The notes under the pieces: generated by a model
Seen by the model: only the letters and a program-made list of their open reading frames with translations
What the model was told of the DNA's origin: nothing
Database searches by the model: none
Assembly: GCA_030690945.1 (NCBI GenBank)
Contig: JAUYFM010000040.1
Coordinates: 1 to 56,795 of the forward strand
Direction of reading: 5' to 3'
Source: Smithellaceae bacterium
Lineage (GTDB): Bacteria > Desulfobacterota > Syntrophia > Syntrophales > Smithellaceae
DNA length: 56,795 nucleotides
Shown: positions 2,781-46,879 of the stretch, piece after piece
Layout: each line of letters opens with the position of its first letter
Position numbering within the stretch: position 1 is the first letter of the stretch
Translations under genes and position numbers: made by a program

Positions 2781-2890
2781 CTAGTGTCCTGTCAACGATA
2801 CTCTGTCATTCCGAAGGAGTCATAACGACTGAGAAATCTTAGATTTCTCCCTGCGGTCGAAATGACATTTCTTGATTGACGAGACACTAG
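2781..2890. repeat. MITE/REP-like element with terminal inverted repeats
   Basis: About 110 bases bounded by CTAGTGTC at 2781-2788 and its exact inverse at 2883-2890. The inverted match extends imperfectly inward (CTAGTGTC-nn-GTCAA on both sides). Inside are a second inverted pair (GTCATT at 2805-2810 and AATGAC at 2861-2866) and a near-perfect palindrome formed by GAGAAATCT and AGATTTCTC around 2831-2849. It has no coding capacity, so it would depend on a transposase elsewhere if mobile. Its right end overlaps the stop codon of the minus-strand gene at 2887. The preceding bases 2563-2780 show nothing recognisable. Confidence 0.7.
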
Positions 2891-3402
2891 TCTTCCTCAT
2901 GCACGATCATCTTGGATTCTTCAGCCTGAAAAATCTGTCGCCGGGGGAGTGCTATTCTGACTGTTGTGCCGGTCGGCCCTTTTTTCGGGTCGGCGTTGGA
3001 TTCAATCGTCACGTTTCCGCGATAGGCTTTAACAGCTGCATAGGCTGACGGCAGCCCCAGGCCGGTTCCATCGCCTGCCGGCTTGGTGGTGAAAAAAGGC
3101 GTAAAAAGAAGTGGGATGTTTTCTTCGGCAATGCCCACGCCTGTATCGGCTAGTGTAATGGACACCTGATGTTCGTCACCTTCGACGGTAATGATCAACG
3201 AACCTCCGTCCGGCATGGCCTCAATGGCGTTTTTTTCCAAGTCAAATAAAGCGGTGACCATTTGTTCATAGTCGATCCATACCACATCATTTTCAAGAAA
3301 TTTTTTCAGCTTGATGTCGACGTTACCCTGCCGGGACAGTTTTGCAAGACTCTCTTCGATTATTTTAAGAATATTGGTTTCCCTGAGCTTCAGACCGAAC
3401 AA
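2887..3402 (-). CDS. stand-alone histidine-kinase-type ATPase domain
   Basis: A 171-residue protein consisting of a GHKL/HATPase_c domain with its boxes in order: N-box ALFDLEKNAIEAMP, G1 DTGVGIAEEN, F-box FTPFFTTKPAG and G2 GTGLGLPSA. There is no sensor, transmembrane or phospho-acceptor His domain. The TTG start at 3402 is supported by AAGGAGG about 10 bases upstream. The last codons abut the inverted repeat of a MITE-like element, which provides the TAG stop, so the original C-terminus may have been different. It is divergent from the DRTGG/ATPase/PHP cassette at 3611 and may belong to the same signalling theme. It could also be the remnant of a larger kinase. Confidence 0.8.
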   Translation of the reverse strand: MFGLKLRETNILKIIEESLAKLSRQGNVDIKLKKFLENDVVWIDYEQMVTALFDLEKNAIEAMPDGGSLIITVEGDEHQVSITLADTGVGIAEENIPLLFTPFFTTKPAGDGTGLGLPSAYAAVKAYRGNVTIESNADPKKGPTGTTVRIALPRRQIFQAEESKMIVHEED

Positions 3403-3610: not shown

Positions 3611-3985
3611 TTGAAACTGCGCGAAGTAAAAGATATCCTGGAGGCGGAAGTCATTGTGGGTGATGATATTCTTGACCTCGAAGTAAAAACAGCCTTCGGG
3701 GCCGACTTGATGAGTGATGTGCTGGCCTATGCCAAAGCGGGCAGCATGCTGCTGACGGGTTTAACCAACACCCAGGTCGTCCGAACCGCCAACGTACTGG
3801 ATATTGCAGCAATTATCCTGGTGCGGGGCAAAAAGCCGTCATCCGAGACGATCGCGTTAGCCAGAGAACTTAAGATTCCCATTTTAACCACGAAATATAT
3901 TCTATTTGAAACGGCGGGCCGCCTCTACACAAAGGGGATTGTCGGTTGTCTGCAAAAAGTTGAAAATACCAGTGGTCGAAACTAA
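3611..3985 (+). CDS. DRTGG-domain protein (first copy)
   Basis: A 124-residue protein resembling the DRTGG domain that occurs alone or beside CBS domains in clostridial and deltaproteobacterial hydrogenase loci. The segment TAFGADLMSDVLAYAKAGSMLLTG aligns with the second DRTGG protein at 4431 (GGYTGDLLSDVMGNSREGYIWIT). Molecular function is unknown; ligand sensing is often assumed. It starts with TTG behind GAGGAG. Its 3' end overlaps the next gene by about 26 bases, implying coupled translation. It is the first gene of the cassette leading into hydC-hydB-hydA. Confidence 0.78.
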   Translation: MKLREVKDILEAEVIVGDDILDLEVKTAFGADLMSDVLAYAKAGSMLLTGLTNTQVVRTANVLDIAAIILVRGKKPSSETIALARELKIPILTTKYILFETAGRLYTKGIVGCLQKVENTSGRN

Positions 3986-4409
3986 TCCAAACCTGTATTC
4001 GAACAGTTTTAATATTGAAGGCGGCAATTTCAATTCCGCCGGTATTGTCTCGACCAACATTAAATCCATTCTGAAAAAATTAGGAATTCCCAGCGATATC
4101 GTCCGAAAAGCCGCCATCGTCTCTTACGAGGCGGAAATCAATGTCGTATCGTATGCCAAAAAAGCCATCGTGAACCTCACGGTTAATCCCGGTGTTGTAC
4201 AAATCGAGGTAATTGACGAAGGTCCCGGCATTCCCAATATTGATTTGGCTATGCAGGAAGGTTATTCTACCGCTGATCAGAGAATCCGGGAAATGGGCTT
4301 TGGCGCGGGTATGGGACTTTGCAACATAAAGAATTATTCCGATGTTTTCCATATCACATCGGAAGTCGGCAAAGGCACTCATCTGAAGATGACGATTCAA
4401 ACACCATAA
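3960..4409 (+). CDS. anti-sigma-factor-like ATPase (GHKL fold)
   Basis: About 149 residues. The N-terminal strand FNIEGGNFNSAGIVST leads to a helix with the N-box SYEAEINVVSYA. Then come G1 DEGPGIPNIDLAM, the glycine lid GFGAGMGLCNI and the final strand KGTHLKMTI. This is the RsbW/SpoIIAB-like small ATPase layout, so a serine-kinase or nucleotide-binding switch is likely, with no phospho-acceptor His. The start is uncertain: TTG codons at 3906, 3939 and 3960 are all in frame. I chose 3960 because homologous small ATPases begin close to this strand; it has no strong ribosome-binding site and relies on overlap with the upstream DRTGG gene. Sited between two DRTGG genes. Confidence 0.8.
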   Translation: MKIPVVETNPNLYSNSFNIEGGNFNSAGIVSTNIKSILKKLGIPSDIVRKAAIVSYEAEINVVSYAKKAIVNLTVNPGVVQIEVIDEGPGIPNIDLAMQEGYSTADQRIREMGFGAGMGLCNIKNYSDVFHITSEVGKGTHLKMTIQTP

Positions 4410-4430
4410 TTTTTCATAAAGGGTTCAGTC

Positions 4431-4772
4431 ATGAAAATTGAAAAAATAGTTCAAGCGCTGGGATTGGAGGTCAGGTGCGGCAAAAATTACCTGGACAAAG
4501 ACGTTACAGGCGGCTACACCGGAGACCTCCTGAGCGATGTCATGGGTAATTCCCGGGAAGGCTATATCTGGATCACCCGCCAGGTTCACCAGAATATTGT
4601 CGCCGTCGCCAGTCTCAAGGAACACGTGGGAATCATTCTGATTAATTCCTGTCAGCCGACTGCCGACACCCTCGAGAAAGCCGAGGCGGAAAAGATTCCG
4701 ATCATGGTGTCCGATTTGCCCGCTTTTGAAATCTCGGGCAAGATCTATAATTTACTGACGGCAAAAAGCTGA
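4431..4772 (+). CDS. DRTGG-domain protein (second copy)
   Basis: A 113-residue protein with the segment VTGGYTGDLLSDVMGNSREG, which matches the DRTGG-domain core better than the first copy does. The rest alternates hydrophobic strands and helices, with TADTLEKAEAEKIPIMVSD near the end, paralogous to the matching region of the 3611 gene. A regulatory, non-catalytic role is inferred. It stands 21 bases after the small ATPase gene and 67 bases before the PHP gene, within one apparent transcript leading to the [FeFe] hydrogenase. Confidence 0.82.
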   Translation: MKIEKIVQALGLEVRCGKNYLDKDVTGGYTGDLLSDVMGNSREGYIWITRQVHQNIVAVASLKEHVGIILINSCQPTADTLEKAEAEKIPIMVSDLPAFEISGKIYNLLTAKS

Positions 4773-4839
4773 ACCTTGAAAACACCATCCCAGAAAATAC
4801 CCGGCGTTTAGTGGTTATTGTTTCCAGCGGTGAAAACCG

Positions 4840-5577
4840 ATGTTGAAAGTTTTTAATTGCGATCTTCATATTCACACCTGCCTGTCCCCCTGCGCCGAAC
4901 TGGACATGCATCCGCAGACCCTGGTACAAAAAGCACTGGATAAAAAGCTCGACATGATCGCCATCAGCGACCACAACGCTTCCGCCAATGTCCCATACGT
5001 CATTGCAGCCGCCGCCGGGAAAAATATTCAAATCATCCCGGCTATGGAAATCACGACAAGGGAAGAAGTACATCTGCTGGCGCTCTTTGAGTCCCTGTCC
5101 GATCTCCTGAAACTTCAGACCGTCATTGATCAGCACTTATTCGGCGAAAATGATGAAAACCGCTTTGGCGTTCAGGCTATCGTCAACGAGTTTGGCGAGG
5201 TGGAAGGGCTGAACAATCAACTGCTCATCGGTGCGACGGATTTATCCATTGACAGTTTCATGGATACCATTCACCAATTGAAAGGTCTGGCCATCCCCGC
5301 GCATATCGACAGGGAAAGTTTCAGTGTCTTAAGCCAACTGGGCTTCATCGATGACCATTCCCGTTTTGACGCGCTGGAAATATCTAAATTAACCGGTATG
5401 GAGCAAGGCCGTATCCAATATCACAATCTGAGCCGATATCCGTTTTTAACATCATCAGACGCCCATTTTATAAAGGATATCGGAACATCACCCACAAAAA
5501 TTATTATGGAAAAACCAACCTTTGCTGAACTAAAGATGGCCCTCTCCAAACAAAACGGCCGTCAGATACTGGAGTAG
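4840..5577 (+). CDS. PHP-family metal-dependent phosphoesterase
   Basis: A 245-residue PHP-domain protein. The metal-binding motifs are visible in order: DLHIHTCLSPC near residue 8, SDHNAS near 48, the glutamate in AMEITTREEVHLLALF near 68-80, AHIDRES near 154 and SSDAHF near 209. This set is typical of PHP phosphoesterases such as histidinol-phosphate phosphatase-like and RNase AM-like enzymes. Its substrate is unknown. Genes of this kind recur next to electron-bifurcating hydrogenases in anaerobes together with DRTGG and ATPase genes, so a regulatory role is plausible but unproven. The next gene starts 2 bases after its stop. Confidence 0.88.
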   Translation: MLKVFNCDLHIHTCLSPCAELDMHPQTLVQKALDKKLDMIAISDHNASANVPYVIAAAAGKNIQIIPAMEITTREEVHLLALFESLSDLLKLQTVIDQHLFGENDENRFGVQAIVNEFGEVEGLNNQLLIGATDLSIDSFMDTIHQLKGLAIPAHIDRESFSVLSQLGFIDDHSRFDALEISKLTGMEQGRIQYHNLSRYPFLTSSDAHFIKDIGTSPTKIIMEKPTFAELKMALSKQNGRQILE

Positions 5578-5579
5578 CC

Positions 5580-6128
5580 ATGCTGACGCTTGCCGACCAC
5601 ATATTGGATATTACTGAAAACTCCGTACGTGCCGGCGCCAAGCTTATTGAAATCAGTATTGACGAAGATTCCCGCAATGATTTGCTCACCATCGAAATTA
5701 AAGACAACGGACACGGTATGAGCCGGGACGTTCTTCAAAAAGTTCTGGATCCCTTTTACACGACCAAAACGGTCCGGCGCGTGGGCTTGGGACTACCACT
5801 CCTTAAAGATGCAGCAGAACGGTCCGGTGGAACATTTCTTCTGGAATCTCAAGAAAACTCAGGAACTACGGTAAAAGCCATCTTTGGTTTGCGTCATTTG
5901 GACCGCCAACCGCTGGGTGACATTCAAAACACAATAATAATTTTGATTATTTCTAATTCTGAGGTTGATTTTTTTTATAAACACAGGCATAATGACCGGC
6001 GGTTTGGGATAGATACACGTGAAATCCGAAAAGAAATCGAGGATATACCCATTAACCATCCTGAGATAATAAAATATATCCGGGGCGTTATTGAAGAAGG
6101 ATTACGCGAAATCGAACCAGAAGCATAG
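5580..6128 (+). CDS. GHKL ATPase, histidine-kinase-like, no sensor
   Basis: A 182-residue protein. The N-terminal part is a GHKL ATPase: ITENSVRAGAKLIEI (N-box), DNGHGMSRDVLQKV (G1), DPFYTTKTVRRVGLGLPLL (F and G2 boxes) and a TTVKAIF strand. The last 60 residues are a basic/acidic helical extension ending in EEGLREIEPEA. No dimerisation/His domain is present, so it is either a non-canonical kinase or an ATP-binding regulator. It follows the PHP gene with 2 bases between them and precedes hydC by 28 bases, so it is almost certainly co-transcribed with the hydrogenase. Confidence 0.85.
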   Translation: MLTLADHILDITENSVRAGAKLIEISIDEDSRNDLLTIEIKDNGHGMSRDVLQKVLDPFYTTKTVRRVGLGLPLLKDAAERSGGTFLLESQENSGTTVKAIFGLRHLDRQPLGDIQNTIIILIISNSEVDFFYKHRHNDRRFGIDTREIRKEIEDIPINHPEIIKYIRGVIEEGLREIEPEA

Positions 6129-6156: not shown

Positions 6157-6651
6157 ATGAAAGCCGAAGACACAGAATTATTAAAAGAGTTCACACCGGA
6201 ACAAGTAGCAAAGCTCGGGAGCATCATTGAAAAACACAGAGGAAAAGCGGGCGGACTGATTCCCATCCTGGAAGAAGCGCAGGTTTCTCTTGAATACCTT
6301 CCTTTATCCGTGCAGAAAAGAATTGCCTCCGGATTGAATCTGCCCTTGAGCCGCGTCTATGGCGTTGTCACGTTTTACTCGTTTTTCACCATGACCCCGC
6401 GTGGTAAACACACCGTTCGCGTTTGCCTGGGCACAGCCTGTTATGTGCGGGGCGGCAAAGCACTCACCGACACACTGGAAAAACAATTCGGCATTAAAGA
6501 AGGTGAAACAACGCCGGACCGGATGTTCACCCTGGAATCCGTCCGCTGCCTGGGCGCCTGCGGATTGGGACCGGTCATCGTTGTGGATGAAGATGTCCAT
6601 GGCCGCGTCAAACCGGGAAAAGTTAAGGAAATCTTGAGCCAATACAATTAA
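6157..6651 (+). CDS. hydC: HydC, NuoE-like subunit of bifurcating hydrogenase
   Basis: 164 residues of the NuoE / 24-kDa thioredoxin-like [2Fe-2S] family. Four ligands are visible as CLGTAC (C-x4-C) near residue 91 and CLGAC (C-x3-C) near residue 131. The helical N-terminus contains ILEEAQVSLEYLP and the conserved VYGVVTFYSFF. In HydABC hydrogenases this subunit passes electrons between the flavin subunit and the H-cluster subunit. A good AGGAGG precedes the ATG. It is the first of four structural genes (6157-11984). Cytoplasmic; no signal peptide. Confidence 0.93.
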   Translation: MKAEDTELLKEFTPEQVAKLGSIIEKHRGKAGGLIPILEEAQVSLEYLPLSVQKRIASGLNLPLSRVYGVVTFYSFFTMTPRGKHTVRVCLGTACYVRGGKALTDTLEKQFGIKEGETTPDRMFTLESVRCLGACGLGPVIVVDEDVHGRVKPGKVKEILSQYN

Positions 6652-6681: not shown

Positions 6682-7065
6682 ATGGCGAAATTGACTATCG
6701 ATGATTTAAAGAAAATTAAAGAAAAAGTGCATAAAGAAATGTCTTTACGGGACGGAGACCGCCGCGTCAATGTAACCGTGCATATGGGAACATGCGGCAT
6801 CGCTTCCGGCGCAAAGGAAGTGATGGACACCCTTCTTGAGGAAATCGAAGCAGCGGGCGTGCATGATGTTGTCGCTACCACATCCGGTTGCATGGGCTTA
6901 TGCAGCCGCGAACCCCTGGTGACCGTCGAAGCATTGAATCAGGACCCCATCAAATATGAATATGTCAATCCCAACAAAATGCGACAGATTTTCAAAAAGC
7001 ATGTTCTGGCGGGAGAGATACAGACACCCTTTGTCCTGGCAAAAGGCTCTGAAACCATTAAATAA
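6682..7065 (+). CDS. thioredoxin-like [2Fe-2S] ferredoxin, hydrogenase accessory
   Basis: A 127-residue thioredoxin-like ferredoxin-family protein of the kind encoded between hydC and hydB in many bacteria. After a helical N-terminus, HMGTCGIASGAKEV supplies one cysteine and TSGCMGLCSREP supplies a C-x3-C pair, so three cysteines are seen in motif positions and the fourth ligand is not obvious. The C-terminal half (VTVEALNQDPIKYEYV) matches the strand-turn of the NuoF N-terminal domain. It is probably an extra subunit or electron-transfer partner of the hydrogenase. It follows hydC by 30 bases. Gene names for this subunit vary between organisms, so no symbol is given. Confidence 0.85.
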   Translation: MAKLTIDDLKKIKEKVHKEMSLRDGDRRVNVTVHMGTCGIASGAKEVMDTLLEEIEAAGVHDVVATTSGCMGLCSREPLVTVEALNQDPIKYEYVNPNKMRQIFKKHVLAGEIQTPFVLAKGSETIK

Positions 7066-10220: not shown

Positions 10221-11984
10221 ATGTCAACAACTGTTAAATTAACTATTGATAATCGCTTGGTAGAGGCGCCAGCAGGGTCCACTATTTTGGAGGCTGCCCG
10301 TGGCGTCGGTATTAAAATCCCCACGCTTTGCGCCTGGACGGAAATTCATCACACACCTGGCGCCTGCCGCGTCTGTATGACCGAAGTGGACGGCCAGCGC
10401 AGCCTGATCGCCGCCTGCGTTTTCCCTGTTAGTGAAGGGATGATTGTGCATACCAACACGGAAAAAGTCCGGCAGGCCAGAAAAATGGTTGTGGAGCTTT
10501 TGCTGGCCAACCATCCGCAGGAGTGCAACTATTGTGTGAGAAACGGCAGCTGCGAATTACAGAAAGTAGCCGAATTTGTCGGCCTCAAAGAAGTTCGTTT
10601 TGATTACACGCAATTCCCGAAGGAAGGTATGATCGACCAGTCCAGTCCCTCAATTGTCCGGGACAGCCGCAAGTGTATTGAATGTCACCGCTGCGTATCG
10701 ATTTGCGAGCAGATTCAAACGGTCAGTGTTTTAACCCCGGCCCATCGCGGCAGTGATGTCAGAGTTGTGCCAGCCTTTGATCTTCCGCTCATTGAATCTA
10801 ATTGTATTGCGTGCGGCCAGTGCATCATGGTTTGTCCGGTTGGCGCTCTTTATGAAAAGGATGACGTTGATTTAGTCTGGAAAGCTCTGCAGGACCCGAC
10901 CAAACATGTGATTGTTCAGGAAGCACCGGCTATTCGTGCGGCTCTGGGCGAAGAATTCGGCATGCCTCCGGGAAGCCTTGTCACCGGCAAAATGATCACC
11001 GCTCTGCGTCGGCTGGGCTTTGATAAAGTTTTTGATACCAATTTTACCGCCGACCTCACCATCATTGAGGAAGGCAACGAATTGCTCAAACGCGTCAAGG
11101 AAGGCGGCACGCTGCCCATGATCACATCGTGCAGTCCCGGCTGGATTAAGTTTTGTGAACACTTTTACCCGGACCTGCTGCCTCATCTGTCCACCTGCAA
11201 ATCACCGCAGCAGATGTTCGGCGCTTTGGCCAAGACCTATTATGCGGAACTGGCAGGGATCGATCCGAAAGACATCGTTTCGGTATCCATCATGCCCTGC
11301 ACCGCCAAAAAGTTTGAAGCCCAGCGACCGGAGATGAACAGCAGCGGTTATCGCGATGTTGATTATGTTCTCACCACACGAGAACTTGGCCGCATGATTA
11401 AAGAAGGCGGCGTTGATTTTATCAACCTGCCGGACGAAGATTACGATGCTCCGATGGGCGAATACACCGGCGCCGGAACCATTTTCGGCGCGACAGGCGG
11501 CGTTATGGAAGCCGCCCTGCGTACTGTCTATGCGGTAGTCACCGGAGAAAACCTGCCCAGCCTGGATGTCACCCCTGTTCGCGGTCTGGAAGGCGTCAAA
11601 GAGGCAACTGTTAAAGTGGGACCTCTGGGCGATGTAAAAATCGCTGTGGCCCACGGCTTGGGTAACGCCCGTAAAATTATGGACAAAATCCGCGAGGGAA
11701 AAGCCGATTATGCCTTCATTGAAATTATGTGTTGCCCCGGCGGCTGCATCGCAGGCGGCGGCGAACCCATTCCCACCAACAACGAAATTCGCGTTTTACG
11801 TTCAGCCGCTCTTTATAAGGATGACGGAAACGTGCAGAAGAAACGGCAATCTCATGAAAATGAGTCAGTGAAGAAGCTCTATGACAAGTTCCTCAAAGAA
11901 CCTTTGGGGCATAAGTCGCATGAACTCCTGCACACCAAATACACAAAAAGAGGCAGTGAAATGCCTCACAAAAAAGATGAATAA
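10221..11984 (+). CDS. hydA: [FeFe] hydrogenase catalytic subunit HydA
   Basis: A 587-residue soluble [FeFe] hydrogenase. Domains in order: a NuoG-like [2Fe-2S] domain (CAWTEIHHTPGACRVC), the His-Cys [4Fe-4S] site (H-x3-C-x2-C-x5-C around NHPQECNYCVRNGSC), two [4Fe-4S] motifs (CIECHRCVSIC and CIACGQCIMVC), then the H-cluster domain with TSCSPGW (L1), MPCTAKKFE (L2) and EIMCCPGGCIAGGG (L3). A small-subunit-type tail follows (VKKLYDKFLKEPLGHKSHELLH). All expected cluster ligands are visible. With hydC, the small ferredoxin gene and hydB it makes a trimeric/tetrameric confurcating-type enzyme. It has no signal peptide and so is cytoplasmic. A strong terminator follows. Confidence 0.96.
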   Translation: MSTTVKLTIDNRLVEAPAGSTILEAARGVGIKIPTLCAWTEIHHTPGACRVCMTEVDGQRSLIAACVFPVSEGMIVHTNTEKVRQARKMVVELLLANHPQECNYCVRNGSCELQKVAEFVGLKEVRFDYTQFPKEGMIDQSSPSIVRDSRKCIECHRCVSICEQIQTVSVLTPAHRGSDVRVVPAFDLPLIESNCIACGQCIMVCPVGALYEKDDVDLVWKALQDPTKHVIVQEAPAIRAALGEEFGMPPGSLVTGKMITALRRLGFDKVFDTNFTADLTIIEEGNELLKRVKEGGTLPMITSCSPGWIKFCEHFYPDLLPHLSTCKSPQQMFGALAKTYYAELAGIDPKDIVSVSIMPCTAKKFEAQRPEMNSSGYRDVDYVLTTRELGRMIKEGGVDFINLPDEDYDAPMGEYTGAGTIFGATGGVMEAALRTVYAVVTGENLPSLDVTPVRGLEGVKEATVKVGPLGDVKIAVAHGLGNARKIMDKIREGKADYAFIEIMCCPGGCIAGGGEPIPTNNEIRVLRSAALYKDDGNVQKKRQSHENESVKKLYDKFLKEPLGHKSHELLHTKYTKRGSEMPHKKDE

Positions 11985-12077: not shown

Positions 12078-13466
12078 ATGACCGACCAAAGAATTGAAAA
12101 AGATTTATTAGGCGAGCTTAACGTTCCACGGGAAGCTTACTGGGGTATTCACTCACAGCGTGCGATAAACAACTTCCGCATCAGCGGCAGGGAGGTAAAT
12201 CCCTCGCTCATCCGGGCGCTGGCCCAGGTGAAAATGGCCTGCTGTCTGGCCAATGCTGAAACCGGTCATCTCTCTCAGAAAAAATCCCGGGTAATCCAAC
12301 AGGCCTGTCTGGAAATATCGAAAGGATTACTTGCCGATCAGTTCCCTATGGATGCCATGCAGGGCGGCGCGGGAACTTCAACGAATATGAATCTCAATGA
12401 AGTGATCGCCAACCGCGCCATTGAGCTCCTCGATGGACAGAAAGGCGATTATGCCTTGGTTCATCCGCTGGAAGACGTCAATCTGCATCAATCAACCAAT
12501 GATGTTTATCCCACCGCTCTGAAAGTTGCCGCAATATTTCTTCTCCGCGATTTATCCAAAGCAGTAGCCGACCTGCAAGGCGCATTTCAGGAAAAAGAAA
12601 AAGAATTTGCGGCCATTGTAAAACTCGGACGGACGGAATTGCAGGAAGCCGTGCCGATCACGCTCGGTGCTGAGTTTTCCGCCTTTGCCGAAGCATTTTC
12701 CCGCGACCGCTGGCGTACCTTCAAATGTGAGGAACGCCTGCGCGTGGTGAATTTAGGCGGAACCGCCGTAGGCACAGGGCTTGCCGCACCACGCAGTTAT
12801 ATTTTTCTAGCCATTGAAAAATTAAGGGATGTAACCGGCCTGGGACTCTCCCGGGGCGAAAACATTCCGGGTGAAACCGCCAATGCCGACACCTTTGTCG
12901 AAGTTTCCGCCATCCTCAAAGCTCACGCCGTCAATCTGATCAAAATAGCCAACGATCTGCGCCTCATGAATTTTTTGGGTGAAATCCGTCTGCCGCAATT
13001 GCAGGCCGGATCATCCATCATGCCCGGCAAAGTCAATCCGGTTCTGGCGGAAGCGGCCATACAAGTCGGCATCAAAGTTATTGCTAATGATGCAATTGTT
13101 ACCGATGCGGCCGCACGTGGGACGCTTCAGATCAATGAATTTCTGCCCCTGCTGGCCCATGCCTTTCTAGAATCACTGGATATGCTGATCAACATCGATA
13201 GGCTGCTCACCTCACATGTTCGCGGCATTGGGGCCAATAAAGAAAAATGTGAAGAATATTTCAATGCCAGTCCTATGATCATTACAGCATTGCTGCCGGT
13301 GATCGGATACGAAAAAGCTACGCTATTCATCACGGAGTTTTCTTCCGGAAGCGAAAAAAACATGCGGCGGTTTCTGGAAGAAAAGCTTGGAAAAGAGTTA
13401 ATCGATCAGATATTCTCTCCCTATCAGTTAACGGCTCTGGGCTATAAGGACAAAAAGAATGGATAA
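12078..13466 (+). CDS. aspA: aspartate ammonia-lyase (aspartase/fumarase family)
   Basis: A 462-residue enzyme. Visible motifs are LLGELNVPREAYWGIHSQRA at the N-terminus, GGAGTSTNMNLNEVIANRA near residue 96, HPLEDVNLHQSTNDVYPTA near 130, the active-site helix GRTELQEAVP and the family signature GSSIMPGKVNP near residue 314. The N-terminus and the residues after the signature (VLAEAAIQV) fit aspartase rather than fumarase C. It converts aspartate to fumarate plus ammonium. aspA is often linked to hydEFG in anaerobes; here it overlaps hydF by 8 bases, so its ammonium may feed assembly of the H-cluster dithiomethylamine bridge (inference). hydE and hydG are not in the window. Confidence 0.9.
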   Translation: MTDQRIEKDLLGELNVPREAYWGIHSQRAINNFRISGREVNPSLIRALAQVKMACCLANAETGHLSQKKSRVIQQACLEISKGLLADQFPMDAMQGGAGTSTNMNLNEVIANRAIELLDGQKGDYALVHPLEDVNLHQSTNDVYPTALKVAAIFLLRDLSKAVADLQGAFQEKEKEFAAIVKLGRTELQEAVPITLGAEFSAFAEAFSRDRWRTFKCEERLRVVNLGGTAVGTGLAAPRSYIFLAIEKLRDVTGLGLSRGENIPGETANADTFVEVSAILKAHAVNLIKIANDLRLMNFLGEIRLPQLQAGSSIMPGKVNPVLAEAAIQVGIKVIANDAIVTDAAARGTLQINEFLPLLAHAFLESLDMLINIDRLLTSHVRGIGANKEKCEEYFNASPMIITALLPVIGYEKATLFITEFSSGSEKNMRRFLEEKLGKELIDQIFSPYQLTALGYKDKKNG

Positions 13467-14712
13467 CACCCCGAAAGGAAACAGGCTGCATATTGCACTC
13501 TTGGGACGAACCAATGTCGGCAAATCCAGCCTGCTGAATTTAATGCTTGGCCAGGACATCGCCATCACATCGCCTGTTGCCGGAACCACCACCGATGTCG
13601 TGGAAAAAGCCATGGAGCTCCTACCGCTCGGGCCTGTACTGTTTCTGGATACGGCCGGTCTGGACGATATATCGGAATTATCCGGCGTACGGCTGAAAAA
13701 AACGGCCCAAGTTTTTGACCGTGCGGATGTCATCATTTTGGTTACCGAAGCTGATACCTGGACGGATTTCGAGGAAGCCGTTTTGACCGAAGCGCAAAAC
13801 CGTAAAATACCCGTGTTGATTGTGATCAACAAAATTGATTTACATCAGCCATCCCCGAATCATCTGCAATTTCTACAATTAAAAGCCCTGATCCTGACCG
13901 TTTCCTGCAGTGACCAAACGAAGCGGCAGAAATATATGGAAACCTTAAAAGAGCAATTGTTGGAAATTGTCCCGGCGGATTTTGTAGCCACTCCGTCGCT
14001 TATCGGTGATTTGCTGCCGTCGGGAGGCTTGGCTGTTTTGGTCGTTCCGATCGATTTAGAGGCTCCCAAAGGCAGGCTGATTCTGCCTCAGGTTCAGACG
14101 ATCCGCGACATCCTGGATAATGATGCCACGGCGGTGGTCGTTAAGGAAAGAGAACTGGCCGCAACGCTTACCAACTTAAAAAATCCGCCGGCCATTGTTG
14201 TAACGGATTCCCAGGCGATTCTCAAAGTGACCGCAGATGTTCCGAAACATATTCCCGTCACGACTTTCTCGATTTTATTTGCCCGACAGAAATCGGATCT
14301 GACCGTCATGGCTGCGGGTGCAGCGGCTATTGATCATTTAAAGCCCGGAGACCGGATCTTAATCGCCGAGGCTTGCTCACATCACGCGCTGGAGGACGAC
14401 ATCGGCCGGGTGAAAATCCCCCGCTGGCTTAGGCAGTACGTTGGCGGCAATTTGCAGATTGATACATCTGCAGGGCGGGATTATCCCGACGATTTGAAAA
14501 AGTATAAGCTGATTCTGCACTGCGGCGCTTGCATGATGAACCGCCGGGAAATGCTCACTCGCCTGCGTAAGGCGCAGGAAGCAGGCGTTCCCGTAACCAA
14601 TTATGGTGTGGCCATTTCTTTTTTGCAGGGTGTCATCAAACGCAGTCTCGCGCCCTTCCCTTCCGCGCTCCTGGCTTTTGAAAATGCAATGAAAACAAGA
14701 AATATCAATTGA
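13459..14712 (+). CDS. hydF: [FeFe] hydrogenase maturation GTPase HydF
   Basis: 417 residues. The N-terminal GTPase domain shows the P-loop GRTNVGKSS, the G2 region GTTTDVV, G3 DTAGLDD and G4 NKID. A dimerisation domain occupies the middle. The C-terminal [4Fe-4S] domain carries EACSHH near residue 306 and HCGACM near residue 353, giving the expected Cys-x-His and CxxC ligands. HydF is the scaffold on which HydE and HydG products are assembled into the 2Fe subcluster before transfer to HydA. The gene overlaps aspA and lies 0.7 kb from hydA. A decayed copy of its first 100 codons occurs at 39816-40131. Confidence 0.95.
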   Translation: MDNTPKGNRLHIALLGRTNVGKSSLLNLMLGQDIAITSPVAGTTTDVVEKAMELLPLGPVLFLDTAGLDDISELSGVRLKKTAQVFDRADVIILVTEADTWTDFEEAVLTEAQNRKIPVLIVINKIDLHQPSPNHLQFLQLKALILTVSCSDQTKRQKYMETLKEQLLEIVPADFVATPSLIGDLLPSGGLAVLVVPIDLEAPKGRLILPQVQTIRDILDNDATAVVVKERELAATLTNLKNPPAIVVTDSQAILKVTADVPKHIPVTTFSILFARQKSDLTVMAAGAAAIDHLKPGDRILIAEACSHHALEDDIGRVKIPRWLRQYVGGNLQIDTSAGRDYPDDLKKYKLILHCGACMMNRREMLTRLRKAQEAGVPVTNYGVAISFLQGVIKRSLAPFPSALLAFENAMKTRNIN

Positions 14713-40418: not shown

Positions 40419-41624
40419 ATGGCAAAAGGAAATCATTCTGAGCACAAGAAAATGATTGACAAGCAGTACAAAGATCTCATGAAGCATTGCCAGACGCATA
40501 TGGAACAGGTTGATAAAACGCTGCCTGAACCGAAGGAAAACCTTCACGAACTCTTGACTGAACGCGGCATCAGCCGCCGGGATTTCGTCAAGTGGACATC
40601 GGCAGCGACCGCGGCGTTAATGCTTCCGCCTATTTTCCGGCCAATGGTCGCCAAGGCGGCGGAAAACTTCAGCCGCTTGCCGGTGGTCTGGCTGCATTTT
40701 GCTGAATGCACAGGCTGCTCCGAGGCGCTCCTTCGTTCATCATATCCGAATGTGGACGACATTCTGCTTGAAACCATCTCACTGGAGTATCACGAAACCC
40801 TCATGGCCGCGTCCGGCTATCAGGCGGAAAAATGTCTGGAAGAGGCCATTCACACTTTCGCAGGCAAATTCATTTGCGTCATTGAAGGCGCTCTGCCTCG
40901 TGGTCTTGACGGCAAGTACCTGACGCTCGGCCCTAAAGGAAAGACCGGCATTGAAGTTGCCAAGGAAGTCACGTCGAAAGCGGCAGCGGTCATCTGCATC
41001 GGATCCTGCTCGGCTTTCGGCAACATTCAGGCCGCCAATCCGAATCCGACGGATTCCGTCAGTATCAGCAAGGCGCTCGGCATTTCCACGGTCAACATCG
41101 CCGGTTGCCCGCCCAATTCTGTGAACTTCACAGGGACATTGTTGCATTATTTAATGTTCGGTGGACTGCCCGCGTTGGATTCCCTGGGAAGACCGGTATG
41201 GGCTTATGGTAAACGCATTCATGATTACTGCGAAAGAAGGCCCCATTATGACGCATCAGAGTATGTTGACGAATGGGGTGACGCGGGAGCGCTTAAAGGT
41301 TGGTGCCTATACAAAGTCGGCTGCAAAGGGCCCTATACCTACGCCAATTGCGGTAAAGTCCGTTTTAATGACGGCATCTCCTGGCCGATTATGGCCGGTC
41401 ACGGCTGCATCGGCTGCACCGAACCCGATTTCTGGGACACGATGGCGCCGCTGGAAAAACCGCTGCCTGACAAATCTTACAACGGGCGCGAGGCAACGGT
41501 CGATAATATCGGCATCGCACTGACCGGTATTACGGCATTAGGCATTGCAGCGCACGCTACGGCCACCGCGCTTCGACATAAAGATGATGATCAGGCCCAA
41601 AAGCAGGAGGTAAAACATGACTAA
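40419..41624 (+). CDS. hyaA: [NiFe] hydrogenase small subunit, Tat-exported
   Basis: 401 residues. A twin-arginine signal (SRRDFVKWTSAATAALMLPP) sits at residues 52-71 behind an unusually long hydrophilic n-region of 50 residues. The mature part carries the proximal-cluster motif CTGCSEALLR, GSCSAFGN and AGCPPNS. The distal/medial motifs include YCERRPHYDA, GWCLYKVGCKGPYTYANC and HGCIGCTEPDFWD. The proximal site has CTGCS rather than CTCCS, so this is a standard four-Cys, oxygen-sensitive type. A C-terminal hydrophobic helix (GIALTGITALGIAAHATATA) anchors it to the membrane near HyaC. It overlaps hyaB by 8 bases. Confidence 0.95.
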   Translation: MAKGNHSEHKKMIDKQYKDLMKHCQTHMEQVDKTLPEPKENLHELLTERGISRRDFVKWTSAATAALMLPPIFRPMVAKAAENFSRLPVVWLHFAECTGCSEALLRSSYPNVDDILLETISLEYHETLMAASGYQAEKCLEEAIHTFAGKFICVIEGALPRGLDGKYLTLGPKGKTGIEVAKEVTSKAAAVICIGSCSAFGNIQAANPNPTDSVSISKALGISTVNIAGCPPNSVNFTGTLLHYLMFGGLPALDSLGRPVWAYGKRIHDYCERRPHYDASEYVDEWGDAGALKGWCLYKVGCKGPYTYANCGKVRFNDGISWPIMAGHGCIGCTEPDFWDTMAPLEKPLPDKSYNGREATVDNIGIALTGITALGIAAHATATALRHKDDDQAQKQEVKHD

Positions 41625-43293
41625 GCGAATCATTGTCGATCCGATCACCAGGATTGAAGGACATTTGAGAATTGAAGTGGAAGTTGATGAGAAAAACGTC
41701 ATCAAAGACGCCTGGAGCAGCATCACGCTTTGGCGTGGCATTGAAACCATTTTGAAGGGCCGCGACCCACGCGACGCCGGGTTGATCGTGCAGCGTTTCT
41801 GCGGCGTCTGCACCTATGTGCATTATGAAGCCAGCATTCTGGCCTGCGAAGACGCATTTGGTATTAAACCACCCCCTAACGCCAGGATCGCCCGCAATCT
41901 CATCAGTTCGTCGCAATATCTGACGGACCACGTCATGCATTTTTATCATCTGCATGGCCTGGACTGGGTCGATATCGTCAGCGCCCTCAAGGCCGATCCC
42001 AAAAAGGCCGTGGACATGGCCAGGGGTTACTCAGACAATCCCTACAACTGTTCGGCAACCCATTACAAGGCGGTTCAGGACCGCATCACCAAATTCGTCA
42101 AATCAGGACGTCTGGGCCCGTTTGCCAATGCTTACTGGGGAAACCCCTCTTACAAACTGCCTCCGGAAGCCAATCTGATCATCCTGTCGCACTACCTCGA
42201 CGCCCTGCAGGTATCCAAAGTCGGCGCGCAGATGATGGCCATCCTGGGCGGAAAGAATCCGCATCCACAGTCACTGGTCGTCGGCGGCATTACTTCCGGC
42301 ATGGATTTATTCGACGCTGATCGCCTGGGTCAGTATTTGTTCCGTTTTAAGGAATTGAGGAACTTCATCGAAACAGCCTATATCCCCGATGTTCTGCTGG
42401 CTGCAACGTACTATAAAAATGAAGGCCTGCAAGGCATTGGCGGTGGTGTGAAGAACTACCTGTCCTACGGCGGATTCCCGCTGGATGACGATTGGCACCA
42501 GACGCTCTTCCCACGTGGCGTAGTCAGAAATCGCGATCTGTCCAAACCGCTTGAACTCGATGAAAAGAAGATCACTGAAGAAGCAACGCATGCCTGGTAT
42601 AAGGATAAAGAACCACAGCATCCCTACACAGGCACAACGGAGCCGGATTACACCGGATACGATAAAAACGGAAACCTCAAAGGCGACGAAAAATATTCAT
42701 GGTGTAAAGCACCGCGCTACGACAACCTGCCGCATGAAGTAGGACCGCTTGCCCGCATGGTTGTCGCCTATGCGCAGGGCCACAAGGAAATTAAGCCATT
42801 GATCGATTCTACGTTGAAGGCCGCCGGGCTTCCCGCCACCGTGCTTTTTTCCACGCTGGGTAGAACAGCCGCGCGCGCGCTGGAAACAAAGTTTATCGCC
42901 GACCACACTGAAGAATGGGTGAATGAGCTGATCGGCAACATCAAGAAAGGTGACACCCGCACCTGGACACGTTGCGATGTTCCCGGAAAACCGGCACAGG
43001 GCCGAGGCATGACGGAACCGCCCCGCGGCGCTCTGGGTCACTGGATCAAAATCGAAAACGGTGTGATTGCCAATTATCAGGCCGTGGTTCCCTCGACCTG
43101 GAACTGCTCGCCGCGTGACAAGGCAGGACTGCGTGGTCCTTACGAAGAATCATTGATCGGCACCAAACTGGCCAACGTTGACCAGCCGCTGGAAATTATC
43201 CGAACTATCCATTCGTTTGATCCCTGCATGGCCTGCGCGGTGCATATCATTGATCCAAAAACGAATGAGATCAAGAAATTCAAAGTGGCATAA
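41617..43293 (+). CDS. hyaB: [NiFe] hydrogenase large subunit
   Basis: 558 residues. The active-site ligands are visible as RFCGVCTYVH near residue 62 and DPCMACAVH near the C-terminus. RIEGHLRIEVEV opens the protein. After the last His comes IIDPKTNEIKKFKVA, the 15-residue extension removed by the HyaD-type protease after nickel insertion. The protein has no own signal and is exported piggy-back with HyaA. Group 1 membrane-bound uptake type, H2 oxidised on the periplasmic side. Confidence 0.96.
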   Translation: MTKRIIVDPITRIEGHLRIEVEVDEKNVIKDAWSSITLWRGIETILKGRDPRDAGLIVQRFCGVCTYVHYEASILACEDAFGIKPPPNARIARNLISSSQYLTDHVMHFYHLHGLDWVDIVSALKADPKKAVDMARGYSDNPYNCSATHYKAVQDRITKFVKSGRLGPFANAYWGNPSYKLPPEANLIILSHYLDALQVSKVGAQMMAILGGKNPHPQSLVVGGITSGMDLFDADRLGQYLFRFKELRNFIETAYIPDVLLAATYYKNEGLQGIGGGVKNYLSYGGFPLDDDWHQTLFPRGVVRNRDLSKPLELDEKKITEEATHAWYKDKEPQHPYTGTTEPDYTGYDKNGNLKGDEKYSWCKAPRYDNLPHEVGPLARMVVAYAQGHKEIKPLIDSTLKAAGLPATVLFSTLGRTAARALETKFIADHTEEWVNELIGNIKKGDTRTWTRCDVPGKPAQGRGMTEPPRGALGHWIKIENGVIANYQAVVPSTWNCSPRDKAGLRGPYEESLIGTKLANVDQPLEIIRTIHSFDPCMACAVHIIDPKTNEIKKFKVA

Positions 43294-43310
43294 GCGATAA
43301 GGAGGCTAAC

Positions 43311-43979
43311 GTGGAAAAAATTACCAGCGTTAAAGAGTGGTCCGTAGCCATTCGGATCAACCACTGGGCCATGGCTCTCTCGATTTTTATCCTGATTGTC
43401 ACAGGCTTTTATATTGCGACTCCTTTCACGATCGCGCAGGGGGAAACGGTGAATAAGTTCTTCATGGGGAACGTGCGGTTTGTCCATCTCCTCTTCGGAG
43501 TGATTCTGCTGTTCCTGTTCATCTGGAGGGTGTATTTAGCCTTTTTCTCCCGCTTTCATGCGGACTGGAAGGATTTCCTGGCATGGACAAATATTAAAAA
43601 CTTTATCCACCAGATCAAATTCTACCTGCTCATTACGAAAGAAGGACCGGACTATAAAACGCTTTACGGGCCGTTGCAGTCACTGGCCTATCTCGGACTG
43701 CTATTCATGGTTTTAGTCATCTGCATTACCGGGCTGATCTTAATGGGTGCCGGGTATCATAAGGGATTTACCTATGTCGCGGCGACGATTTTAACGCCCG
43801 TGGAAAATTTGCTGGGTGGGCTGGCGATGGTCAGATACATTCACCATATATTCACCTGGTTCTTCATTCTATTCATTGTGGTGCATATTTACATGGCTTT
43901 CTGGTACGATGCCGTTTTGAAAAAAGGCACCGTATCCTCCATGATCAGCGGCAATATTTTCAAGAAAGTGAAAGAGTAG
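43311..43979 (+). CDS. hyaC: hydrogenase cytochrome b subunit
   Basis: 222 residues with four hydrophobic segments (around residues 18-40, 60-85, 125-150 and 175-200). Conserved His residues fit two b-type haems: INHWAMALSIFIL, RFVHLLFGV, and RYIHHIFTWFFILFIVVHIYMAFWY near the end. It takes electrons from HyaA to menaquinone. A GGAGG site lies before the GTG start and hyaB ends 17 bases upstream. Belongs to the HyaC/HupC cytochrome b561-like family. Confidence 0.94.
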   Translation: MEKITSVKEWSVAIRINHWAMALSIFILIVTGFYIATPFTIAQGETVNKFFMGNVRFVHLLFGVILLFLFIWRVYLAFFSRFHADWKDFLAWTNIKNFIHQIKFYLLITKEGPDYKTLYGPLQSLAYLGLLFMVLVICITGLILMGAGYHKGFTYVAATILTPVENLLGGLAMVRYIHHIFTWFFILFIVVHIYMAFWYDAVLKKGTVSSMISGNIFKKVKE

Positions 43980-44011
43980 AACTACAGTGGTAGCTGTTAA
44001 ATAGATTTTCC

Positions 44012-44043
44012 AAAAAGGGGAGAGAAATGACTCTCCCCTTTTT
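44012..44043 (+). terminator. Rho-independent terminator between hyaC and hyaD
   Basis: A 13-bp perfect stem AAAAAGGGGAGAG (44012-44024) with CTCTCCCCTTTTT (44031-44043) and a 6-base loop. It splits structural from maturation genes, so the latter need read-through or an own promoter. Read on the minus strand it also ends in a T-run. Confidence 0.85.
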
Positions 44044-44061
44044 GGTTATATAAGATGGAAT

Positions 44062-44559
44062 ATGACAGATAGAAACAAAGTTACGGTATTAGGCATCGGC
44101 AACATTCTGATGGGGGATGAAGGTTTCGGCGTTCACTTCGTGCGCTGGTTTTCCAAGCGCTATCGAACGCCGGATGACGTTCGTATCGTTGACGGAGGCA
44201 CTCTGGGCTATGCCCTATTAGATATTATTTGCAGTGGCGATCACCTGATCGTTGTGGACGTTTTGAAAGCACAGGACAGCCCCGGCTCCATCTACCGCTT
44301 CACCAAAGAGGAAATGGAGTTGCACATGCCGCCGCCGACATCCGCCCATGAAGTGACATTTCCCGACGTGCTGTTCAAAACCGAATTGATGGGTGAATCA
44401 CCGGAGACGATATTTCTTTGTATCGTGCCACAGAATTACAAGGATATGAATCTGGAAATGAATCCATTCCTGTATGAAAAATTCAACGATGTGGAAAAGC
44501 TTCTGCTTGCCGAACTGAGAAAATTAGATATTCATCCGGAGCGACTATCCGATGCATGA
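44062..44559 (+). CDS. hyaD: hydrogenase maturation endopeptidase
   Basis: 165 residues. The HyaD/HybD family signature GIGNILMGDEGFGVH at the N-terminus includes the nickel-sensing Glu; DGGTLGYALLD and the Asp in VVDVLKA follow, and SAHEVTFPDVL gives the conserved His. It cleaves the C-terminal tail of HyaB once the metal centre is loaded. It overlaps hypA by 8 bases and is the first of seven maturation genes. Confidence 0.93.
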   Translation: MTDRNKVTVLGIGNILMGDEGFGVHFVRWFSKRYRTPDDVRIVDGGTLGYALLDIICSGDHLIVVDVLKAQDSPGSIYRFTKEEMELHMPPPTSAHEVTFPDVLFKTELMGESPETIFLCIVPQNYKDMNLEMNPFLYEKFNDVEKLLLAELRKLDIHPERLSDA

Positions 44560-44896
44560 ACTGTATATTGCCGAATCCATCATCAATATTATTGGCGACT
44601 ACGCCGCACGAGACGGCTTTGAGAAAGTCAACAGCATCTCGCTTTCCTATGGCCGGCTTTCCTGTATTGAATCGAAAACGCTGCAATTTGCGTTTGACGT
44701 GCAGGCCAAAGGCACACCCGCCGAGGGTGCCGCACTGGACTTTAAAATCCTGCCTGCCGTCATCCATTGCTTTTCATGCGAAAAGGATTTAGAGGTCAAG
44801 TCGCATACGGGCACTTGTCCTTCTTGTGGTGGATTGGAAGTTGTGCTGACTGCGGGAACAGAAGAATTAAAAATTTTAGAACTGGATGTAGATTAG
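44552..44896 (+). CDS. hypA: hydrogenase nickel-insertion protein HypA
   Basis: 114 residues. The N-terminal MHELYIAESII carries the Ni-binding Met-His-Glu. A zinc site is formed by CFSC near residue 74 and CPSC near 90. With HypB it delivers nickel to the large subunit precursor. The start lies within the end of hyaD. Confidence 0.94.
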   Translation: MHELYIAESIINIIGDYAARDGFEKVNSISLSYGRLSCIESKTLQFAFDVQAKGTPAEGAALDFKILPAVIHCFSCEKDLEVKSHTGTCPSCGGLEVVLTAGTEELKILELDVD

Positions 44897-44903
44897 GTAT
44901 TTT

Positions 44904-45134
44904 ATGTGTATCGGATTTCCCGGAAAAATAATTTCTATTGACAATGATAACTATGCGATCATCGACATCAGCGGCACACGCCGCGAGGTTTGCCTGGATA
45001 TTATTGACGAAGAGGCTTCCATTGGTGATTACGTCATTACTCACGCGGGCTATGCCATTCACAAAATCGATACGATAACCGCTCAGGACAAACTGAAATG
45101 CTTACAAGAGATCATCGACAATGAAATTTATTGA
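44904..45134 (+). CDS. hypC: hydrogenase assembly chaperone HypC
   Basis: 76 residues. Starts MCIGFPGKI, with the essential Cys2, and continues with REVCLDII and GDYVITHAGYAI, all HypC/HybG hallmarks. HypC carries the Fe(CN)2CO unit from HypD to the large subunit. It overlaps hypD by 14 bases. Confidence 0.94.
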   Translation: MCIGFPGKIISIDNDNYAIIDISGTRREVCLDIIDEEASIGDYVITHAGYAIHKIDTITAQDKLKCLQEIIDNEIY

Positions 45135-46209: not shown

Positions 46210-46222
46210 CGGAGGTCATACA

Positions 46223-46879
46223 GTGAAAGTAACCGTGGTTAAAAATGTGTTGGATGCCAATAATCGGATCGCGGACGATAACAGAAAACTCTTCGATCAG
46301 CATAAAATGTTTGTCATCAACCTGATGAGCTCTCCGGGCGCGGGAAAAACATCCCTTGTGGAGAGAACCATCCTCGCCCTGAGGGACAAATACAGAATCG
46401 CCGTGATCGAAGGCGATATCCAGGACACCTACGATGCGGACCGTATCGCCAAACTGGATATTCCCGTCGTCCAGATCAACACGGGCGGCGCCTGCCATAT
46501 TGACGGTAATATGATCCGCGAGGCTTTTCCCTCATTTGATTTCAGCAAAATCGATCTTTTAATTGTTGAAAACGTCGGCAATCTGGTCTGCCCCGCGGAA
46601 TTCAAAATCGGTGAAAATATCAAGATCATGCTGCTCAGCACACCGGAAGGCGCGGATAAACCCGCAAAATATCCCCTGATGTTCCAAGAGTCGGCGGCTC
46701 TTCTGATCAACAAGATTGATTTGATGCCTTATGTAGATTTTGATCTCGTAAAAGCCAAACGCGACGCACTGGCATTGAATAAGGACTTAAAGATATTTGA
46801 AGTGTCCTGTAAAACGGGCACAGGACTGGATGGCTGGATCTCCTGGCTGACAAAACGAATTGATGCATTCAAAAAGTAA
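46223..46879 (+). CDS. hypB: hydrogenase nickel GTPase HypB
   Basis: 218 residues from a GTG start. NLMSSPGAGKTSLVERT is the P-loop; EGDIQDTYDADRI, GGACHIDGNMI (metal-binding Cys-His) and NKIDLMPYVDFD are family motifs. No His-rich nickel store is present at the N-terminus. GTG 46223 is chosen because GGAGG lies 7 bases before it; the ATG at 46202 would lie inside the ribosome-binding region and overlap hypD. The 3' end overlaps hypF. Confidence 0.92.
   Translation: MKVTVVKNVLDANNRIADDNRKLFDQHKMFVINLMSSPGAGKTSLVERTILALRDKYRIAVIEGDIQDTYDADRIAKLDIPVVQINTGGACHIDGNMIREAFPSFDFSKIDLLIVENVGNLVCPAEFKIGENIKIMLLSTPEGADKPAKYPLMFQESAALLINKIDLMPYVDFDLVKAKRDALALNKDLKIFEVSCKTGTGLDGWISWLTKRIDAFKK

Follow-up and report, generated by a model that had tools for sequence, protein, structure and literature searches.

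A conserved DRTGG/GHKL/PHP gene cassette accompanies the HydBC electron-bifurcating core and may act as a phospho-switch

The stretch of DNA analyzed here (the window) is the 56,795-nucleotide contig JAUYFM010000040.1 of a Smithellaceae bacterium (assembly GCA_030690945.1). It carries, ahead of a hyd operon, a cassette of five genes in the order D1 (DRTGG), W1 (SpoIIAB-like kinase), D2 (DRTGG-like), PHP and K (GHKL ATPase), followed by hydC at 6157. A comparison of gene neighborhoods and genomes indicates that, judged from gene content, the cassette is tied to HydBC, the electron-bifurcating core, and that its link to hydrogenase is secondary. The five genes may constitute a phospho-switch that serves the electron-bifurcating enzyme of HydBC type (Bfu), and not the hydrogenase subunit, as its signaling cassette, an assignment to which we give about an even chance. 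A previous interpretation of this DNA from its letters (the sequence-only reading) had proposed a kinase- and phosphoesterase-like switch ahead of the hydrogenase; the tie to the hyd operon holds, whereas the placement "ahead of the hydrogenase" describes it too restrictively, as the constant neighbor is HydBC.

Matches to the PHP protein are present in 51 of 59 relatives (E ≤ 0.001, generic PHP matches included), and neighborhoods were retrieved as 37 stretches from those relatives, 80 loci of named genomes (the best 80 of 420 relatives, most of which are metagenome-assembled genomes of Syntrophaceae, Smithella and further Deltaproteobacteria) and 20 divergent genomes. The resulting 137 loci (L031-L147, L172-L191; L, G and C numbers are our handles for loci, genomes and contigs, G000 being the genome of the window) were reduced to 80 non-redundant loci by removing those with no PHP match above 150 bits, with an identical PHP, or with PHP flanks shorter than 3 kb on the upstream side or 3.5 kb on the downstream side. 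D1 is found in 74 of these 80 loci, W1 in 76, D2 in 75 and K in 77. HydB or HydC is encoded in 75 loci and a full-length [FeFe] HydA in 25, while 24 show a match to the N-terminal part of HydA only; the loci span at most about 10 kb on each side and some stop at contig ends, so a HydA missing from a locus is no proof of absence. All six N-terminal-only HydA-like proteins examined are molybdopterin oxidoreductases, including one in a locus that also carries full HydA (L040), and that of L123 can be read as a selenocysteine formate dehydrogenase. The latter (L123:15446-18142), an alpha subunit whose reading frame contains a TGA at residue 356, is the partner of HydBC. Additionally, 19 N-terminal open reading frames of 351-364 aa among the loci are perhaps likewise in-frame TGA cases.

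The same comparison was made for 296 genomes of the phylum with a completeness of at least 90, a PHP alignment match serving as the cassette marker: 66 genomes match at 234.9 bits or more and the rest, among the matches listed, at 51.4 bits or less, G088 being counted among the 66 although its PHP match is split into parts of 114 and 113 bits. HydB is present in 66/66 cassette genomes (checked by eye) versus 181/230 others. Group A6 HydA exceeds its cut-off in 33 genomes, 17 of which also have the cassette, which corresponds to 17/66 cassette genomes versus 16/230 others (Fisher p = 8e-5, uncorrected for relatedness). Profiling against hydA, as the sequence-only reading had suggested, reveals an association, but most cassette genomes have no A6 HydA over its cut-off. 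Moreover, 49 of the 66 cassette genomes have no catalytic [FeFe] match at 1e-100 (the catalytic [FeFe], HydSD and HydB searches scored no more than 4 or 5 candidates in each genome, and some absences are possibly false; all candidates were scored for HydG and HydF). The cassette thus occurs mostly without the hydrogenase, the yardstick that the sequence-only reading itself had named, and regulation specific to [FeFe] hydrogenase is rejected.

The association extends to a second phylum, in which the PHP family is found at 1e-30 in 45 of 195 genomes. There, 17 of the 20 retrieved stretches carry HydB or HydC, 13 of them with a HydB above 800 bits, and a full HydA is seen in L207 alone, most of the others having the N-terminal-only match. 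The genes are also interleaved: in L187 and L190, HydC separates PHP from K, and the three loci L260, L262 and L264 have D1 flanked by HydC and HydB. The order of the cassette is not due to chance, since it is repeated in the relatives and in the second phylum. Several observations weigh against a strict tie to HydBC. Five of the 80 non-redundant loci are without HydB and HydC (L135, L137, L144, L180 and L183), the cassette of L180 adjoining, by eye, Nuo-type genes, and in 4 of the 17 second-phylum loci the sole HydB/C pair seen is a divergent one (394-425 bits). HydB-like proteins are so common (247 of 296 genomes) that the presence of HydB in 66/66 cassette genomes is a weak test when taken alone.

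The five cassette reading frames and a divergent reading frame encoding only an ATPase domain (K0) were recovered where the sequence-only reading had located them, with Pfam matches for D1, W1, PHP, K and K0 (Table 1). Its two DRTGG proteins fare differently: D1 is confirmed by its score, whereas D2 lies under the Pfam cut-off, and the assignment of D2 as DRTGG rests on the matches between the D1 and D2 family profiles and on their common motif. The structure model of D1 has a predicted local distance difference test score (pLDDT) of 93.9; in a comparison of this model with the PDB, the lowest E-value is obtained for 3l31 (CBS and DRTGG domains of a pyrophosphatase) and the highest TM-score, 0.78, for 2ioj (Pfam DRTGG), and the predicted fold also matches 3l2b (DRTGG of a CBS-pyrophosphatase). 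The best PDB matches of W1 are the SpoIIAB structures 1til, 1l0o, 1th8 and 1tid (44.7-45.5 bits), in agreement with the RsbW-like ATPase proposed previously. The start codon of W1 is uncertain, and its annotated reading frame overlaps D1. Residues E59, N63, D88, G90 and G92 of W1 are invariant in 24/24 aligned sequences, E59 and N63 being presumably the catalytic residues of the N-box. Likewise, H10, H12, D44, E70, H78, H155, D207 and H209 of PHP, which we take to be the metal-binding set, are invariant in 19 aligned sequences, and N14, D42, G44 and G46 of K in 21. The model of K (pLDDT 91.3) is most similar to MutL and to the ATPase domains of histidine kinases, and no clear domain was recovered for its C-terminal tail.

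In the Pfam scan, W1 and K contain HATPase domains only and lack an H-box (dimerization and histidine phosphotransfer domain), so K is indeed the kinase-like ATPase without a His domain of the sequence-only reading. No DNA-binding domain was detected in the five cassette proteins by Pfam and NCBIfam scans. Two results weigh against a close equivalence with SpoIIAB modules: W1 reaches 51.6 bits against TIGR01925, below the SpoIIAB equivalog cut-off of 135, and no STAS domain or sigma factor is seen among the Pfam matches of the ten window proteins scanned, so partner switching of the SpoIIAB type serves here as an analogy only. A plain two-component system (no H-box, no response regulator) and a strict sigma-factor partner switch (no STAS, no sigma) are rejected.

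A DLxS motif is common to D1 and D2, and its serine (Ser35) is invariant in 21/21 D1 and 22/22 D2 sequences. In contrast, DLxS occurs in 0/17 alignable long non-cassette DRTGG proteins of the same phylum, of which 15 have "AM" at this position, L229 has TM and L255 has AA (L242 and L251 are unalignable, and L246, L247 and L249 are without a profile match). Across all retrieved reading frames, redundant copies included, the serine is present in 217 of 228 D1-type and 200 of 200 D2-type proteins (199 by script and that of L066 by eye); the eleven D1 exceptions represent eight distinct proteins. A D1 tree was built without the motif columns, and W1 status was scored as presence within the locus (25 rows from earlier loci were assigned as having W1, which was confirmed against those loci). 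All 42 rows with W1 in the locus have the serine, whereas the 21 rows without W1 comprise 13 Ser, 5 Asp/Glu and 3 Ala (p = 5e-5). The Asp/Glu rows form one clade (support 97/90) that also includes one Ala row, and four of the five acidic D1 proteins are from genomes without the cassette marker (G149, G195, G273 and G312).

This natural experiment on Ser35 is imperfect, and the phospho-switch is inferred from one motif plus that experiment. Against it stand the 13 rows that keep the serine with no W1 in the locus; 12 of these 13 genomes have the PHP marker elsewhere, and G086 does not. Additionally, the losses of serine are confined to two clades, the acidic change may be a single event since the Asp/Glu rows lie in one clade, and G254 (Asp) as well as G321 and G337 (Ala) are genomes that do carry the cassette. 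Two isolated D1 copies with Ala for Ser35 (L276:509-883 and L283:4802-5185) lie, by eye, near genes of the acyl-CoA/methylmalonyl-CoA type.

D1/D2-type proteins are found at 1e-10 in 72 of the 296 genomes, namely the 66 cassette genomes and six more. Forty further stretches were selected for their non-cassette copies, with some divergent cassettes included. In nine of these loci, all of family f49, D1 lies downstream of a gene pair that we take to be NfnA-NfnB (by NCBIfam, PRK06222-type and GltA in L272 and GltA in L257; the rest by similarity). D1 adjoins carbon monoxide dehydrogenase/acetyl-CoA synthase (CODH/ACS) genes in two loci (L270 by NCBIfam, L273 by eye) and HdrA-FlpD genes in one, and a D1-W1 pair without the other cassette genes occurs in five f71 loci, L284 and L287. 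These neighborhoods suggest a broader and decidedly more tentative idea: a DRTGG phospho-switch could be a general regulator of electron-bifurcating enzymes (HydBC, Nfn-type and HdrA-FlpD), in which a SpoIIAB-like kinase would set the serine, Asp/Glu would freeze it once the kinase has been lost, and the sensor would be a hydrogenase-like Fe-S protein, mostly without an H-cluster, that reads redox state and not H2.

In divergent lineages, a protein of approximately 450 residues (HydSD) is encoded between W1 and D2. Its architecture, as seen by Pfam in the L185 protein, consists of two Fer4 clusters, Fe_hyd_lg_C and a C-terminal FeS domain, with no PAS. Four candidate H-cluster cysteines, presumably the H-cluster ligands, are invariant in 14 HydSD sequences. 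HydSD is present in 29 of the 296 genomes, 29/66 with the cassette and 0/230 without it (p = 4e-22, uncorrected for relatedness). The search gave 32 matches, of which three (G000, G010 and G020) were assigned to PAS-type HydS and excluded; those of G000 and G010 are identical in position to the HydS of L194 and L056, and the match of G020 adjoins the large [FeFe] fusion of that genome. The match of G074 is partial with one stop. By coordinates, HydSD lies less than 3 kb from PHP in 20 of the 29 genomes and on a separate contig in several others. Fusions of HydSD to D1 are seen in L124, L130 and L132 and to D2 in L172-L174, the DRTGG part scoring 37.5 in L124, over the Pfam cut-off, and 23.0 in L172, just under it. 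W1 is fused to CBS domains in L187 and L284 (Pfam) and has N-terminal extensions of similar length in L190 and L221. HydSD within the relatives' cassettes and the CBS domains on W1 make the previously suggested sensing of redox or nucleotide state by the cassette plausible. The layout of HydSD is also that of the group D hydrogenases (TamHydS) in PMC8163306 and PMC13104023.

HydG, HydF and a catalytic [FeFe] match at 1e-100 are all absent from 19 of the 29 HydSD genomes, absence meaning no HydG match above 40 bits and a best HydF match of at most 108 bits, as other GTPases give. HydG is over its cut-off in 8/29 genomes and HydF in 5/29, plus G139, where it is split between contigs; weaker HydG-like matches are seen in G122 (183.9) and G227 (234.8). 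As a positive control, HydG is over the cut-off in 15 of 16 group-A6 cassette genomes (the exception being G227; G088 is outside this set). Beyond the 29, G052 (L040) has both HydG and HydF, G346 (L132) has neither, and G345 (L124) has HydG and no HydF over the cut-off. Gaps in draft genomes could explain single maturase absences, hardly 19. The conserved sensor therefore appears not to be generally an H-cluster-based H2 sensor, barring an unknown maturation route.

HydSD was not found in the genome of the window; among the at most five candidates scored, the only match at 1e-40 is a PAS-type HydS on contig C19. This region (L194:1903-8551, G000:C19) encodes a GltD-[FeFe] fusion of 1145 aa, a small ferredoxin-like reading frame, the PAS-type HydS and a SpoIIE-type phosphatase, the domains being named after the homologues in L053. 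HydG and HydF are present in this genome, so an H-cluster sensor is possible in the window organism. In relatives such as L053, L056, L057 and L065, the HydS-SpoIIE unit directly adjoins K0 and the cassette, with K0 in between, and HydS and the phosphatase are both present in 7 of the 80 non-redundant loci. By eye, the PAS-type HydS of L053 (13601-15319) has a C-terminal H-box-like stretch and the neighboring K0 consists of an ATPase domain only; the two may represent a divided histidine kinase. In some relatives, the HydS-SpoIIE unit occupies the position that the GGDEF-like and toxin-antitoxin-like genes hold upstream of K0 in the window.

From the gene content, order, co-occurrence, fusions and motif conservation described above, we infer a scheme that covers phosphorylation with its target, direction and effect, as well as an ancestral state and a role for K. 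W1, as a SpoIIAB/RsbT-like Ser/Thr kinase, would phosphorylate the DLxS serine of D1 and D2, and PHP, or the SpoIIE-type phosphatase in relatives, would strip the phosphate. The phospho-state of D1 and D2 would then decide their binding to the HydBC core and its activity. The likely ancestral input is HydSD, a group-D-like sensory [FeFe]-hydrogenase homologue, which in maturase-free genomes would be at best an Fe-S redox sensor, barring another maturation route; in the window's genome, the PAS-type HydS and SpoIIE phosphatase on the other contig may provide the input.

Three other explanations were considered, each of which we regard as unlikely and to a similar degree. The cassette could exert H2-responsive transcriptional control of the hydrogenase operon via a two-component or anti-sigma system, which is close to the sequence-only reading and to the published sensory-hydrogenase proposal. 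The HydS, SpoIIE phosphatase and K0 genes directly upstream of the cassette in some relatives, the seven loci with both HydS and phosphatase, the positive association with group A6 HydA, the HydG and HydF of the window's genome, and the genetics of hfsB and hfsC in Thermoanaerobacterium, which indicate regulation (PMC5707799, PMC11837493), are all consistent with such control. However, W1 and K are without an H-box, no DNA-binding or STAS domain is seen in the cassette, 49 of the 66 cassette genomes have no catalytic [FeFe] match at 1e-100, and 19 of the 29 HydSD genomes have neither HydG nor HydF, which makes this explanation improbable.

The cassette proteins could instead be assembly or maturation factors, the GHKL ATPases and DRTGG proteins acting as chaperones that insert flavin mononucleotide or Fe-S clusters into HydBC. 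Such a function would account for a link to HydBC whatever the catalytic partner, for the three loci in which D1 is flanked by HydC and HydB, and for the resemblance of the modeled K to MutL-type ATPases. It is a doubtful explanation, because D1 is also located near Nfn-type, HdrA-FlpD and CODH/ACS genes, HydB homologues exist in 181 genomes that have no cassette, and the HydSD-DRTGG and CBS-W1 fusions point to sensing. In the third explanation, the DRTGG (and CBS) domains would bind an adenine dinucleotide-like ligand made or destroyed by PHP, and the ATPases would be ATP/ADP sensors, with no protein phosphorylation. The modeled fold of D1, which resembles the DRTGG domain of CBS-pyrophosphatases (3l31, 3l2b), the intact candidate metal site of PHP, and the CBS-W1 fusions (L187, L284) with the similarly long extensions in L190 and L221 would fit this idea, as would the binding of adenine nucleotides to the regulatory region of CBS-pyrophosphatases described in the literature. 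Nucleotide signaling is nevertheless improbable: DLxS takes the place of residues found in other DRTGG proteins, and its loss only in copies with no kinase gene in the locus is not predicted by a pure ligand model.

Calusinska et al. reportedly described the cluster of sensory hydrogenase, kinase and bifurcating hydrogenase. A group-D hydrogenase gene and a kinase gene upstream of bifurcating hydrogenase genes are known from Thermoanaerobacter, Caldicellulosiruptor and Clostridium thermocellum (PMC3608648, PMC3561251), with Athe_1292 and 1297-1299 and Cthe_0335 and 0340-0342 listed in Table 6 of PMC3561251. Locus-tag arithmetic suggests four genes between M2e and the bifurcating genes, and four genes (D2, PHP, K and Fdx) likewise lead from HydSD to HydC in L184, L186, L189 and L191. 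Unlike in the M2e cluster, the sensor gene was not found in the cassette or genome of the window, molybdopterin enzymes are frequent partners, and HydSD occurs in maturase-free genomes. RsbT/RsbU and SpoIIAB/SpoIIAA/SpoIIE are partner-switching modules, which the cassette resembles in its SpoIIAB-like kinase, the conserved serine in a small partner and the SpoIIE-type phosphatase in relatives; it differs in that the candidate partner is DRTGG and not STAS, no sigma factor is seen, and phosphorylation is putative. The modeled D1 has the same fold as the DRTGG domain of CBS-DRTGG pyrophosphatases and the N-terminal domain of HPr kinase, but D1 and D2 are stand-alone domains with DLxS.

The HydS-PAS and phosphatase unit on C19 resembles the unit formed by HydS-PAS (HfsB) and a serine phosphatase (HfsC) in hfsABCD of Thermoanaerobacterium (PMC5707799, PMC11837493), except that in the window's genome it lies away from the cassette, whereas it is adjacent in some relatives. 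The HydB/HydC core of the window, with an exchangeable third subunit in relatives, corresponds to the Bfu (BfuABC) electron-bifurcating family, which has a HydB/HydC core and an interchangeable third subunit (PMC9304861). The excerpts of PMC9304861 do not describe the cassette, one figure legend citing regulatory genes generally, and those of PMC4374699 and PMC10055695 contain nothing on it. In literature searches, DRTGG with hydrogenase gave only an unrelated gene of Desulfovibrio vulgaris Hildenborough (DvH), and this gene set gave only a Rex-site study listing an unrelated PHP gene; judged by titles and abstract openings, DRTGG alone gave nothing on regulation of bifurcation or hydrogenase, and for partner switching with sensory hydrogenase, no relevant title was returned. 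The sensory hydrogenase-kinase-bifurcating hydrogenase cluster is thus already described (PMC3608648, PMC3561251), whereas the DRTGG component was not found for this setting in the literature so searched.

For the question of how cells switch electron-bifurcating enzymes between making and using low-potential electrons, the cassette offers named candidate components and a single candidate phosphosite, Ser35. For putative sensory [FeFe] hydrogenases, H2 sensing has been assumed and the output is not established; the 19 of 29 sampled genomes that encode the group-D-like sensor without known H-cluster maturases make this assumption directly testable.

Table 1. Coordinates and profile matches of the cassette, hyd operon and maturase genes in the window
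Feature	Coordinates	Strand	Evidence
K0, stand-alone ATPase domain of histidine-kinase type	2887..3402	-	HATPase_c 73.1 bits, cut-off 26.4
D1, DRTGG-domain protein, 124 aa	3611..3985	+	PF07085 47.3 bits, cut-off 25.2; motif ADLMSDV, Ser35
W1, SpoIIAB-like Ser/Thr-kinase-type GHKL protein	3906..4409	+	HATPase_c 37.5 bits, cut-off 26.4
D2, divergent DRTGG-like paralogue, 113 aa	4431..4772	+	PF07085 16.8 bits, below cut-off 25.2; motif GDLLSDV
PHP-family metal-dependent phosphoesterase, 245 aa	4840..5577	+	PF02811 36.1 bits, cut-off 26.4
K, GHKL ATPase with conserved C-terminal tail	5580..6128	+	HATPase_c 59.5 bits, cut-off 26.4
HydC/BfuC, thioredoxin-like [2Fe-2S] subunit	6157..6651	+	PF01257 173.1 bits
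Small [2Fe-2S] ferredoxin-like protein, between hydC and hydB	6682..7065	+	PF01257 19.7 bits, below cut-off 24.8
HydB/BfuB, GltD-like FAD/NAD(P) C-terminal half, 1018 aa	7131..10187	+	Complex1_51K 160 bits, NADH_4Fe-4S 125.5, Pyr_redox_2 108.8
HydA, [FeFe] hydrogenase group A6	10221..11984	+	NF040763 906.1 bits, cut-off 765
HydF, H-cluster maturation GTPase	13459..14712	+	TIGR03918 547.3 bits, over cut-off, at C16:13465-14649

By its genes (group A6 HydA, HydB and HydC), the operon of the window fits a HydABC bifurcating hydrogenase, and bifurcation is predicted. In the window, hydA and hydF are separated by an aspartate ammonia-lyase-like gene (12078-13466, named by eye), and this hydA-aspA-hydF order is repeated in many relatives. 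Upstream of K0, the region 41-2562 contains a GGDEF-like gene and, at 1177-1645, a pair resembling a toxin-antitoxin system, both named by eye. Additionally, positions 40419-50180 encode a [NiFe] hydrogenase together with hyp maturation genes, assigned by eye from the reading frames.

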